Shown piece after piece: positions 12,017-43,439 of a stretch of DNA of 64,000 nucleotides. Origin of the DNA: Synechococcus sp. CB0101 (GTDB lineage: Bacteria > Cyanobacteriota > Cyanobacteriia > PCC-6307 > Cyanobiaceae). The notes beneath the pieces were generated by a model. That model made no database searches. It was not told the DNA's origin and saw nothing but the letters and a program-made list of their open reading frames with translations. The stretch covers positions 2,700,554 to 2,764,553 of the forward strand of contig NZ_CP039373.1 of assembly GCF_000179235.2 (NCBI RefSeq), read 5' to 3'. Position 1 is the stretch's first letter; each line of letters opens with the position of its first letter. The translations under genes and the position numbers were made by a program.

Positions 12017-12039
12017 CGCCCTGATTGCTCCAGCGCCGG

Positions 12040-14052
12040 ATGCCCTCGCCTGCCGAACTCGCCTGGCTGATTCCGGTGTTGCCCTTGATCGGGGCAGCGT
12101 TGGTGGGTCTTGGGCTGATCAGCTTCAACCGCACGGTGAACCGGTTGCGCAAACCGGTGGCGCTACTGCTGATCACGAGCGTGGGAGCCGCTGCAGTGCT
12201 CAGCTACGCCGTGCTGGCCGAGCAACTGGCGGGGGCCGGGCCCACCGAAGTGCTGTTCAACTGGGCCAGCGCCGGCGCCTTCACCCTGGAGATGGGCTTC
12301 CGCGTCGATGCCCTGGGTGCGGTGATGCTCGCCCTGGTCACCACCATCGCCGTGCTGGTGATGGTCTATTCCGATGGCTACATGGCCCACGACAAGGGCT
12401 ATGTGCGCTTTTTCACCTATCTGGCCCTGTTCAGCAGCTCGATGCTGGGCCTGGTGATCAGCCCCAACCTCCTGCAGATCTATGTGTTCTGGGAGCTGGT
12501 GGGCATGTGCTCCTACCTGCTGGTGGGCTTCTGGTACGACCGCGATGGCGCCGCCAATGCCGCCCAGAAAGCCTTCGTGGTGAACCGGGTGGGCGACTTC
12601 GGCCTCTTGCTGGGCATCCTCGGCCTGTTTTGGGCCACCGGCAGCTTCGGCTTTGAGCAGGTGGGCACTGGTCTGCAAGCCGCGATCGCCAACGGCAGCG
12701 TGTCGAACGGCATCGCCGTGCTGCTCTGCCTGCTGGTGTTCATGGGGCCCATGGCCAAATCGGCCCAGTTCCCGCTGCATGTGTGGCTGCCCGATGCGAT
12801 GGAGGGCCCCACTCCGATTTCAGCGCTGATTCACGCCGCCACGATGGTGGCCGCGGGCGTGTTCCTGGTGGCTCGCCTGCAGCCGGTGTACGTGCCGTTC
12901 CCTGAGGTGCAGGTGGTGATTGCCGTGATCGGCACGATCACCCTGTTTCTGGGGGCCTCGATCGCCCTCACTCAGATGGACCTGAAGAAGGGCCTGGCTT
13001 ACAGCACCGTGAGCCAACTGGGTTACATGATGCTGGCGATGGGCTGCGGCGCACCGGTGGCAGGCATGTTCCACCTGGTAACCCACGCCTTTTTCAAGGC
13101 GATGCTCTTCCTGGGCTCCGGCTCGGTGATCCACGCCATGGAAGAGGTGGTGGGCCATGAGGCGGTTCTCGCGCAGGACATGCGCCTGATGGGCGGCCTG
13201 CGCAAACACATGCCGATCACCAGCAGCACCTTCTTCATCGGCTGCCTGGCGATCAGTGGCATCCCGCCCCTGGCCGGCTTCTGGAGCAAAGACGAAATCC
13301 TCGGTCAGGCCTTCGGCAGCTTCCCGGTGCTGTGGGCCGCTGGTTTCATCACCGCCGGCATGACCGCCTTCTACATGTTCCGCTTGTACTTCCTCACGTT
13401 TGAGGGCAGCTTCCGCGGCAACGACAAGGCCATGCAGGCACAGCTGATGGCCGCCGCAGGCAAGAGCAGCGACGAGCACGGCGATGACCACGGCCACGCC
13501 CATGCCGAGCATCCCCACGAATCCGGCTGGCAGATGGCGATGCCCCTGGTGGTGCTGGCTGTTCCTTCCGTGCTGGTGGGTCTGCTGGGGGTGCCCTGGA
13601 ACAGCCGCTTCGGTTACCTCCTCGATCCCCATGAAGCCGCCGAGGTCGCCGAGCACTTCAGCTGGGGTGAATTCCTGCCCTTGGCCGGCGCTTCTGTAGC
13701 CATTTCCCTGGTGGGCATCACCGTGGCCGTGCTGGCCTACGCGCTGCGCAAGATCGATCTGGGCACCGCCGTCGCCGGCCGCTTCCCCACGATCAACGCC
13801 TTCCTGGCGAACAAGTGGTACCTCGATGCCATCAACGACAAGCTGTTCGTGCAGGGCAGCCGCAAGCTGGCCCGCTCCGTGCTGGAAGTGGATTCCAAAG
13901 TGGTCGACGGCGTGGTGAACCTCACCGGCCTGGTCACCCTCGGCAGCGGCGAAGGCCTCAAATACTTCGAAACCGGCCGCGCCCAGTTCTATGCCCTGAT
14001 CGTCTTCGGCGGCGTCATCGCACTGGTGGTGCTGTTTGGCGTCCTTGGGTGA
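12040..14052 (+). CDS. ndhF: NDH-1 subunit 5 (NdhF)
   Basis: Large proton-pumping antiporter-like subunit at the distal end of the NDH-1 membrane arm; with NdhD1 it defines the respiratory/cyclic NDH-1L form. The 670-residue protein has about 16 hydrophobic helices, the core motif FPLHVWLPDAMEGPTPISALIHAATMV split over helices 7-8, and the long C-terminal amphipathic section. A His/Asp-rich cytosolic loop (DEHGDDHGHAHAEHPHESG, residues ~484-502) stands out. ATG 12040 is used rather than the TTG at 12025. Confidence 0.97.
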   Translation: MPSPAELAWLIPVLPLIGAALVGLGLISFNRTVNRLRKPVALLLITSVGAAAVLSYAVLAEQLAGAGPTEVLFNWASAGAFTLEMGFRVDALGAVMLALVTTIAVLVMVYSDGYMAHDKGYVRFFTYLALFSSSMLGLVISPNLLQIYVFWELVGMCSYLLVGFWYDRDGAANAAQKAFVVNRVGDFGLLLGILGLFWATGSFGFEQVGTGLQAAIANGSVSNGIAVLLCLLVFMGPMAKSAQFPLHVWLPDAMEGPTPISALIHAATMVAAGVFLVARLQPVYVPFPEVQVVIAVIGTITLFLGASIALTQMDLKKGLAYSTVSQLGYMMLAMGCGAPVAGMFHLVTHAFFKAMLFLGSGSVIHAMEEVVGHEAVLAQDMRLMGGLRKHMPITSSTFFIGCLAISGIPPLAGFWSKDEILGQAFGSFPVLWAAGFITAGMTAFYMFRLYFLTFEGSFRGNDKAMQAQLMAAAGKSSDEHGDDHGHAHAEHPHESGWQMAMPLVVLAVPSVLVGLLGVPWNSRFGYLLDPHEAAEVAEHFSWGEFLPLAGASVAISLVGITVAVLAYALRKIDLGTAVAGRFPTINAFLANKWYLDAINDKLFVQGSRKLARSVLEVDSKVVDGVVNLTGLVTLGSGEGLKYFETGRAQFYALIVFGGVIALVVLFGVLG

Positions 14053-14130
14053 TGTCTGAGGCGCGGCCCTTCCGCCGGCTGCCGCGCACTGCGTGACGCG
14101 GATGCCGGCTCCAGGGCCGCGCCTCAGACA
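14053..14130 (+). terminator. long nested hairpin directly after ndhF
   Basis: Begins on the base after the ndhF stop. Perfect 18-bp outer arms at 14053-14070 and 14113-14130, then inner stems 14074-14079/14104-14109 and 14082-14086/14097-14101 around a 10-nt loop. No U-run follows, so it may act as a 3'-end stabiliser or processing structure rather than a classic terminator. Confidence 0.6.
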
Positions 14131-14217
14131 CCCAGCAGGAGGGGCATGGGGGGCAAAGCTTGCCCGGAGACCCAAGCCCTGCACGCATCAAGCCCTCGCC
14201 CAGCTCCCGCCTGCGGG

Positions 14218-14286
14218 GGCCTGGGGTTTGGCCTCGGGGCGCTGTCCGCCCCCAGCGGTGAGCGCCCCGAGGCCAAACCCCAGGCC
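14218..14286. repeat. 26-bp perfect inverted repeat, hairpin
   Basis: Arms at 14218-14243 and 14261-14286 are perfect reverse complements (starts GGCCTGGGG, ends CCCCAGGCC) with a 17-nt centre that can add four more pairs. The predicted fold is very stable in either strand. Could be an RNA element, an attenuator before ndhD, or a repetitive extragenic palindrome. Confidence 0.75.
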
Positions 14287-14341
14287 ACAACGCTCTGTGT
14301 GACATCCGCCACGCCACCGATGCAGCAGCGGCGGTGATTTC

Positions 14342-14347
14342 TACACT
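14342..14347 (+). promoter_or_regulatory. possible -10 box (TACACT) for ndhD
   Basis: TACACT 24 nt before the GTG start of ndhD, matching the box and spacing before ndhF. Confidence 0.35.
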
Positions 14348-14371
14348 CCGCCCAGAGCTGTTGCCCCGTCT

Positions 14372-16003
14372 GTGCATCTGGATGTCGCCACGCTCCTGGC
14401 TGCTGCCGCAGGCCAGGGCAGCAGCACAGCCTTTCCCTGGTTAAGTGCCTCGATCCTGTTTCCGATCGGCGCGGCGCTGTGCATTCCGTTTGTGCCCGAC
14501 AACGGCGATGGCAAGCAGGTGCGCTGGTTTGCGCTGGGGATCGCCCTGATCACCTTCCTGATCACGGTGGGGGCTTATCTCAACGGCTACGACCCCAGCA
14601 ACCCGGATCTCCAGCTGGTGGAGAAGGTGAGCTGGCTACCGGATCTCGGTCTGGAGTGGTCGGTGGGAGCTGATGGCATCTCAATGCCGCTGATCCTGCT
14701 CACCAGCTTCATCACCGCCCTAGCCGTGCTGGCCGCCTGGCCGGTGAGCTTCAAGCCGAAGCTCTTCTATTTCCTGCTGCTGGCCATGGATGGCGGCCAG
14801 ATCGCCGTGTTTGCGGTGCAGGACATGCTGCTGTTCTTCCTGGCCTGGGAGCTGGAACTGATCCCGGTGTATCTGCTGCTGGCGATCTGGGGCGGCAAAA
14901 AGCGGCAATATGCCGCCACCAAATTCATCCTCTACACCGCCGGAAGCTCCCTGTTCATCCTATTGGCGGGCCTGGCGATGGCCTTCTACGGCGGAGACAT
15001 CAGCTTCAACTACACCGATCTGATGGCCAAGGGCTTCTCGGTGAAGTTCCAGCTGCTCGCCTACGCCGGCCTGCTGATCGCCTTCGGGGTGAAGCTGCCA
15101 ATCGTGCCCCTGCACACCTGGCTGCCGGATGCCCACGGAGAAGCCACGGCCCCGGTGCACATGTTGCTAGCCGGCATCCTGCTGAAGATGGGCGGCTACG
15201 CCCTGCTGCGCTTCAACTGCCAGATCCTGCCGGATGGCCACGCCGTGTTTGCACCACTGCTGGTGGTGCTGGGGGTGGTGAACATCATTTACGCAGCCCT
15301 CACTTCGTTTGCGCAGCGGAACCTCAAACGAAAAATCGCCTACAGCTCGATCAGCCATATGGGCTTTGTACTGATCGGCATCGGCAGCTTCAGCGCCCTG
15401 GGCTCCAGCGGCGCGATGCTCCAGATGATCAGCCATGGCCTGATCGGCGCCTCGCTGTTCTTCCTGGTGGGTGCCACCTACGACCGCACCCACACCCTGC
15501 AGCTCGATGAGATGGGCGGGGTGGGCCAGAAGATGCGCAAGATGTTTGCCCTCTGGACCGTGTGCTCGCTCGCGTCCCTGGCGCTCCCGGGGATGAGCGG
15601 CTTCGTGAGCGAATTGATGGTGTTTGTGGGCTTCGCCACCGACGACGCCTACACCCTGCCCTTCCGGGTGGTGATCGACGGCCTGGCGGCGATCGGCGTG
15701 ATCCTCACGCCCATTTACCTGCTCTCGATGCTGCGCGAAATCTTCTACGGGCAGGAGAAAGCCGAACTGGTGGGGCACACCAACCTGGTGGATGCCGAAC
15801 CGCGTGAGATTTACATCATTGGCTGTCTGTTGGTGCCGATCATCGGCATCGGCCTCTATCCACGGCTGATGACCGACAGCTACAAGGCCTCCATGGAGGT
15901 GCTGGTGGCCAGGGATGAACGCGCGATGAAGGCCCTCAACGCCCCCGCCGGCACCGGCTTGATCCGTCAGGCCCCCCTGCGGGCGCCAGCACTAGCCGGA
16001 TAA
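14372..16003 (+). CDS. ndhD: NDH-1 subunit 4 (NdhD1)
   Basis: Antiporter-like proton-pumping subunit of the NDH-1 membrane arm. Length 543 residues from a GTG start, about 14 hydrophobic helices, with the core helix-7/8 motif [18 protein letters not shown] and an ionisable Glu in [13 protein letters not shown]. Placed directly after ndhF, which pairs with the NdhD1/NdhF1 form rather than the CO2-uptake NdhD3/F3 form, where cupA would be expected next; none is here. Confidence 0.96.
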
Positions 16004-42115: not shown

Positions 42116-43439
42116 TCCAGACGCGATCCAGCGGCGTGAGCGAGGGGCGATCTGCCCGCAGCCGCGCCGCGATCTGGTCCGCGAGCGCATCTCGGCCGCT
42201 GCGCCGAGCGGCCACCAACAGCATCTGGTGGAGAAGCAGGGCCTGAGCGTCGCTTCCCCCTGCCAGCGCGAACCAACCCTGCAGGGGCTCCAATCGATCC
42301 AAAGCCTGTTGATGCTGGCCTCGGGCCAGGGCGATCGCAGCCTCCACCAAATCAACAGCGGCTGGCCGCCAGCACCAGCCAACGGACTGAGCCTGCATCG
42401 CCACCCCGCGGCGCAGGGCAGCTAGGGCTTCTGCCTGGTTGGCCCTTGGCTCGGCGCGGGCTAGACACCAGGCGTACTGCACAGCGATCAACGGTGCCTC
42501 CGGCTGATGGCATCGATCGGCGATGCCATCAGCCAACTGCCGCCAGATTGGATTCAGCACCACCGGCCAGCGCTCTGGGCCGGCGAGCTCGAGTCGGCAT
42601 GCCAACGCGATCCAATCGAGCGCTTCGCCGGTGCCCAGCGTCGGGGTGACATGGCCTGCCACGGCCAGCCACTGACGCCAAGCCAAGCGATCCTCCGCGG
42701 CTTCCAGCCATAGAAGTGAACGGTGCCAGTGGTTATGCAGGGCCATGGGCCACGCCGCAGCCTGCCAACTGCCATGGCGCTGCTCAGCCCATTGCAACGC
42801 CTGATCCAGCGCTCCCCGACGCTGGAGGCTATGCATCAAAGCGTGATCAGCCCAGGGATTAAGAGAACGCTGCTCAACCGCTTCATGAGCACACCGCTCC
42901 GCCTGAGGCAAGCACCCACAAAGCTCCAGAGCAAAGGCCTCAATCGCCAAAACATCAGGCTGTTCCGGATGGTGCTCACGACACCAACTCGCCAATTCGA
43001 GAAGCCGTGGGCCATGGCTCTCCTGCCCGCGCAAGTAACAGACCCACTCGGCAACCTTGAGCGGAAACACGGCCTGCGGAGCCTCCAGCAGCAGCAGCTC
43101 CAACCGACGCAGCGCCCAACCCAGCTCCCCGCGGTACCAAAGCTGAGCAGCCTCCAGCAGACCCTGCCCCCAGCGATCCAGCTGCTGCAGCCCGTCGCCG
43201 GCGGCCTGTAGCTGTGAGGCGGCCTCTGCCCTGGCTTCGGGCGTCTGCCCTGTGAGCGCCACAAGAGCAGCCAGCAATCTGAGCTGCGGCCACTCGGGCG
43301 CCGCAGAGGCGGCAGCAGTGGCCAGCTCCATCCCCGGCAGATATCCCATCCAGGCGGCAGCCACGGCCTCCGCCTGCTTCCGCTGTTCGGAGGACAGGGG
43401 TTCAAGAAAATCCGGCGACAGCAGGAGAGCCTGGGTCAC
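42102..43439 (-). CDS. TTC38-family tetratricopeptide protein
   Basis: 445 residues of helical repeats. The central part carries the TTC38 signature: [16 protein letters not shown], the segment [16 protein letters not shown] and [14 protein letters not shown], matching animal TTC38 where the His/Trp residues are conserved in the same order. Such proteins have no assigned catalysis. It is coupled to rsmH by an ATGA overlap and ends inside the facing membrane-protein gene. Confidence 0.8.

Follow-up and report, generated by a model that had tools for sequence, protein, structure and literature searches.

The window, a 64-kb stretch of DNA from a genome consisting of a single contig of 2,789,616 bp, contains the genes ndhF and ndhD, separated by a gap of 319 bp in which two long hairpins, H1 and H2, are found (Table 1). 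The initial annotation, made from the sequence, had called both genes as well as a 78-nt nested hairpin beginning on the base after the ndhF stop and a perfect 26-bp inverted repeat further downstream. The gene calls were verified by matches to NCBIfam models, and the two inverted repeats correspond to H1, whose 34-nt arms are 85% complementary, and H2. The fold of positions 14040-14380 reaches -216.9 kcal/mol, compared with -160.1 +/- 5.5 kcal/mol in 100 shuffles (z -10.3), none of which was as low. No inverted repeat in the window other than H1 and H2 has a score of at least 16; at a score of at least 12 one more appears (42502-42534, score 14), and five 64-kb first-order Markov controls yielded one inverted repeat in total, with a score of 12.

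Table 1. Positions of the features in and around the ndhF-ndhD gap of the window, and of the hairpins in the glmS gap of other genomes.
Feature	Position	Strand	Details
ndhF, NAD(P)H-quinone oxidoreductase subunit 5	12025-14052	+	NCBIfam NF005626, 1215.5 bits; stop TGA 14050-14052
H1, long nested hairpin	14053-14130	+	Inverted-repeat search and fold; first base is the base after the ndhF TGA
Short hairpin	14151-14165	+	6-bp arms, 3-nt loop
H2	14218-14286	+	26-bp perfect outer arms 14218-14243 and 14261-14286; 17-nt apical part re-pairs
ndhD promoter-like element	14296-14347	+	TGTGTGACA 14296-14304; TTTCTACACT 14338-14347; -10-like TACACT 14342-14347
ndhD, NAD(P)H-quinone oxidoreductase subunit 4	14372-16003	+	NCBIfam NF002713, 1007.4 bits; GTG start as read
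glmS-gap hairpins, G006	L166 1501-1572, 1707-1784		
glmS-gap hairpins, G017	L274 1322-1386, 1475-1543		
glmS-gap hairpins, G014	L218		

The short hairpin between H1 and H2, which the initial annotation had also listed, does exist but does not stand out as an element: among 1000 base-shuffled versions of the 87-nt spacer, 20% do equally well, which is chance level. None of the other gap sequences that were tested contains its exact sequence. The absence of a U-run after the hairpins, noted initially, holds for both strands: sequence inspection revealed no T-run 3' of either H1 or H2, and a terminator scan flagged neither hairpin.

A conserved element upstream of ndhD

Directly downstream of H2 lies an element reading TGTGTGnCAtC ... 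ATTTCTACACTCC from position 14296, which is conserved 5' of ndhD in picocyanobacteria, Prochlorococcus included. It is also common to marine Synechococcus, and its conservation is strong and specific to ndhD. The motif TTTCTA is present in 89 of 98 gaps upstream of ndhD (some records being counted twice), and the box pattern stands at its main offset in 140 of the 146 gaps where it was recognised, with 36 more gaps lacking a recognised pattern. In the window and in 400-kb samples of three genomes (the G091 sample excludes its ndhD), the element occurs only upstream of ndhD. This conservation and near-constant spacing suggest that positions 14296-14347 form a promoter preceded by an activator site, from which ndhD transcription would start. 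A sigma-70 consensus scan of positions 13900-14500 flagged no promoter, this element included. The upstream box TGTGTGnCAtC may be a binding site for an activator. An RNA structure within the element was considered and rejected: GUGUG could pair with UACAC, but the observed changes mostly break these pairs, and RNAalifold returned no consensus structure from 133 distinct sequences of the element. In L028, L098, L099, L101, L102, and L104 the -10-like site reads TACGAT and a short hairpin (TGTGTCATC...GATGACACA) lies inside the element; elements of this type are perhaps regulated differently.

The position of H2 relative to this element bears on two functions that had been suggested for the gap initially, namely an attenuator or riboregulatory leader for ndhD and a small RNA. 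The 3' end of H2 precedes the -10-like site, and the hairpin would thus lie outside an ndhD mRNA begun at the promoter-like element, which makes a leader unlikely. For a small RNA the strong fold does speak, but an Rfam covariance-model search of positions 13800-14600 returned 12 matches at E of 1 or below, most of them to microRNA families of animals and every one below its gathering score, and the scan described above found no sigma-70-like site. We consider either kind of regulatory RNA very improbable.

Copies and distribution of the hairpins

Also among the initial suggestions was a palindromic repeat family, together with a genome-wide search for further copies of the 26-bp arm. Searches of the genome with the whole gap, with an H2 core pattern, and with the covariance model R1 (150 of 5825 first-look candidates scored) retrieved no second copy of H2, and an H1 core pattern retrieved no second copy of H1. 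The whole-gap search returned the locus and its reverse-complement matches plus one 28-bp match at C1:1349073 without a hairpin, and no long hairpin was present at any of the remaining matches of the H2 core pattern when these were checked in context. A repeat family with many dispersed copies per genome was therefore rejected.

Within the genus, a covariance model of H2 found the hairpin at the ndhF-ndhD locus in 13 of 25 genomes (with up to 150 candidates per genome scored), and the apical tip is conserved in 12 of these, that of the thirteenth (G019) being different. Among the first 30 ndhF-ndhD gaps, the window's included, H2 was detected in 11 by a strict scan and in a twelfth (G015) by looser scans. 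H1 is common to the window and five close relatives in the gap comparison. Apart from this locus, the H2 model found a single site in the 25 genomes, the glmS gap, in G006 and G017. The G006 gap has one hairpin after the stop of a glmS-like gene and another that overlaps the end of a convergent gene, and G017 has two hairpins in the same places; we take the convergent pair, from reading the sequences, to be glmS and a sugar-phosphate nucleotidyltransferase gene. In a survey of 17 glmS loci, in which the end of the gene escaped detection in one locus and another locus reached the end of its contig, a long hairpin was present only in G006 and G014. The tips of the G006 and G017 glmS-gap hairpins resemble the tip of the G019 ndhD hairpin.

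 An H2 tip pattern matched in 7 of 149 genomes, all within the genus, and a family-wide search with the H2 model matched in 10 of 251 (20 candidates per genome scored, under strict filters), again all within it, so hairpins of other genera are alike in form and place and not enough in sequence for the model. A wider tip pattern produced matches above those of a reversed control in G010 and G018 and not in the other 23 of 25 genomes; of its 33 places, 30 were examined, and only three coincide with inverted repeats with a score of at least 16, two of them in G006 and the third in G017; these three belong to the glmS gap. No general loop-tip motif was found across genera, the tips being different.

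We then considered form and place in 121 hand-picked genomes, comprising the first 30 and 91 chosen for the region upstream of ndhD from among those listed (many listed genomes, mainly of genera g5 and g57, were passed over, and unlisted ones are absent). A hairpin was counted as H2-type if it had a score of at least 18 and lay within 20 nt of the mark. Such hairpins, with differing arms and tips, adjoin the element in 26 of the 121 genomes and 6 of 22 genera (g1 12/22, g68 8/13, g53 3/12, g6 1/23, g70 1/4, g82 1/3, and none in the 16 others), a share that describes this selection and not a population rate. TGTGTG is present in all 26 positives, 7-21 nt 3' of the hairpin foot; in the window this distance is 9 nt. 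In two further loci outside this set, L084 and L087, the end of ndhF is 2.2-2.8 kb upstream of the hairpin, which nonetheless adjoins the ndhD element. The two genes are separated there by an ORF of 417-418 residues on the opposite strand (L084 7302-8555 and L087 7105-8361, minus strand); its product is presumably glycosyltransferase-like, by reading of the sequence.

H2-type hairpins are absent from the other 95 genomes, the close relatives G011, G012, and G013 among them, and where at least 60 bp are available upstream of the element, 18 of 28 gaps carry a long hairpin and 10 do not (some records being duplicates); the hairpin is thus dispensable. Mapped onto an ndhF tree of 24 genomes, which excludes G019, its presence and absence require at least four changes, with G011, which lacks H2, nested in a positive clade. 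The possibility that homologous gaps lack the stems had been raised initially; overall the stems recur, although many such gaps are indeed without them.

Hairpins at the ndhF stop codon were scored separately (score of at least 14, loop of up to 60) in the 85 of 92 genomes whose ndhF end was in reach. They are present in 15 of the 85, and 11 of these 15 genomes are also H2-positive; by hand tally, uncorrected for ancestry, an H1-type hairpin accompanies 11 of 15 H2-positive and 4 of 70 H2-negative genomes. In other genera these hairpins start 15-20 nt before the first post-stop base, and in G022 exactly on that base. The two-hairpin arrangement of the gap is present in some freshwater picocyanobacteria.

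Long inverted repeats are otherwise rare. In 400-kb samples of G000, G006, and G091 (1.2 Mb together; loop limit 24 for G006 and 40 for G000 and G091), one inverted repeat with a score of at least 20 was found, and among 59 named loci around ndhF (639 kb) 7 of the 8 inverted repeats with a score of at least 18 lie in or beside the ndhF-ndhD gap. The single repeat of the 400-kb samples (L182 12907-12956, G000:C1 about 952907), which comes from the sample of the genome that contains the window, is a 25-bp loopless palindrome with an AT-rich center.

Covariation of the hairpin arms

Compensatory changes among relatives had been proposed initially as a check on the stems, and the homologous gaps do contain recurrent stems with compensated changes. 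Across 12 aligned H2 sequences, whose arms differ between species, 97% of 329 cells are paired, and 18 of 28 pairs have changed on both sides, a number reached in none of 500 shuffles. Only 2 of the 329 cells are G-U pairs. The cells of H2 include 60 double changes, 2 one-sided changes, and 10 unpaired cells, and those of H1 include 11, 0, and 4, respectively, compared with 21, 37, and 10 in RNase P RNA from the 16 genus genomes with a full match, which served as the sole control RNA with its structure taken from RNAalifold. The ratio of double to one-sided changes differs from that of RNase P with Fisher p values of 2e-13 for H2 and 7e-5 for H1, which are indicative since the cells share ancestry. 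Of the 60 double changes in H2, 43 are of the transversion type and so have no route through a G-U pair. In a second clade (G204, G268, and G091), the stems differ only by one to three double changes, where the upstream regions differ by 5-6% of aligned sites. Additionally, in H1 of G005 and G008 two 3-nt blocks look, by eye, as if they may have been re-copied in opposite directions.

Because double changes dominate, are nearly free of G-U pairs, and exceed those of the RNase P control, we infer that the hairpin arms have been copied onto each other by template switching. Homogenised inverted-repeat arms are a known outcome of this process, per the available parts of PMC8794818 and PMC8604942. 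The same outcome would be expected if template switching simply creates and keeps palindromes in a GC-rich gap as a functionless by-product of mutation, and the patchy presence of H2, with its repeated changes on the ndhF tree, accords with this. Such repeats are, however, nearly absent elsewhere in our samples and yet recur here at two fixed positions in several genera, and the H2 tip is conserved in 12 of the genus genomes; we give an entirely mutational origin a low probability.

The scarcity of G-U pairs is also relevant to a role in RNA processing, whereby ndhF and ndhD would be co-transcribed and the long duplexes cut by RNase III to part the two mRNAs. A perfect 26-bp duplex is a plausible RNase III substrate, and a stem adjoins the ndhF stop. 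A role in RNA only, on the other hand, should tolerate G-U pairs, and the hairpin stays with the ndhD element in L084 and L087 even with ndhF far off behind an opposite-strand ORF, making this reading improbable. Nearly exclusive Watson-Crick pairing and the short distance from hairpin to promoter-like element would suit a DNA cruciform, extruded when the DNA is negatively supercoiled, that modulates the ndhD promoter next to it. GC-rich arms with an unpaired or re-paired apex are poor for extrusion, however, and the apex is of this kind, with 15-23 nt, in most hairpins; a cruciform would also leave H1 at the ndhF stop unexplained, and the hairpin is missing from most genomes. We regard it as quite improbable.

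A possible transcription boundary and its relation to known systems

Three observations argue instead for a boundary: the fixed position of H2 beside the element in all 26 positives and in L084 and L087, the co-occurrence of H1 and H2, and the rarity of such repeats elsewhere. The placement of hairpins at the ends of two transcription units, seen in the glmS gap as well, suggests the same. We tentatively favor, while stopping short of calling it probable, the reading that the ndhF-ndhD gap is a two-hairpin transcription boundary without U-tracts whose arms are kept matched by copying. H1 would end or protect ndhF transcripts, in keeping with the mRNA-end element among the initial suggestions, which fits its place at the ndhF stop in the window and in further genera. 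Placed shortly before the promoter-like element, H2 would block transcription crossing that element from either side, whether read-through from ndhF or transcription running leftward from the ndhD promoter. As no U-tract is present, this would proceed by pausing or release at the hairpin, RNase processing, or exonuclease blocking and not by canonical intrinsic termination. Template switching during replication would copy the arms, so that the stem sequence drifts and pairing stays perfect. The tie between H2 and the ndhD element, the recurrence in other genera, and the nearly G-U-free covariation were invisible to the initial annotation from the window alone.

A more specific form of this boundary, which we consider unlikely, would have H1 facing ndhF transcripts and H2 facing leftward transcription from the ndhD promoter, with polymerase or a factor reading the internal-loop tip, and thus a bidirectional boundary without U-tracts. 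Within the genus the tips of H1 and H2 look mutually reversed, on the basis of few unpaired bases, which would fit elements facing opposite ways. If this is true, the same arrangement would be in place between convergent genes in the glmS gap of Vulcanococcus limneticus (G006) and of G017. We found no description of a U-tract-free bidirectional termination mode in Rho-less picocyanobacteria, and no paper that deals with these hairpins in its title or the opening of its abstract, in the open-licence PMC literature.

The available part of PMC13289151 provides context on both sides: cyanobacteria are without Rho, only 22% of transcription units in S. elongatus resemble canonical intrinsic termination, most end outside known termination pathways, and structure is present at 46% of defined ends lacking a U-tract; against a boundary, non-canonical ends there are broadly without strong structure. 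Hairpin clusters without a U-trail have been proposed as terminators (PMC8355165, in the part available), and bacteria at large are reported to carry an excess of perfect inverted repeats close to the starts and ends of genes (PMC13155455, likewise). We would like to note a further point against a boundary. Palindromes of great length can survive through mutation alone. Long hairpin pairs without U-tracts that are present or absent among close relatives would allow a direct test of what ends transcription, and they are a natural bacterial example of intergenic palindromes whose arms change together.

With the template-switch homogenised repeats of PMC8794818 and PMC8604942, as far as the available text describes them, the hairpins share compensatory changes with few G-U intermediates, and compensated arm changes in excess of a selected RNA were found here relative to one control RNA. 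Those papers describe block changes matching the other arm, which the two 3-nt blocks in H1, read by eye, may represent; they concern RNA genes and yeast coding DNA, whereas the pairs described here are intergenic and occupy fixed sites next to two genes. REP and tagged palindromic repeats, per the available part of PMC3733652, are likewise extragenic palindromes; here the locus is fixed and no second copy was found. H1 has in common with an intrinsic terminator a GC-rich stem-loop right after the gene end, and both H1 and H2 lack the U-tract 3' of the stem. The gap also resembles the U-trail-less hairpin and cluster terminators in the available parts of PMC8355165 and PMC13289151, with which it shares GC-rich hairpins just after the stop and two hairpins per gap. 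Unlike in those terminators, one of the two hairpins here goes with the promoter-like element of the next gene, and the arms are nearly perfect and far longer than those of other hairpins in the sampled stretches.
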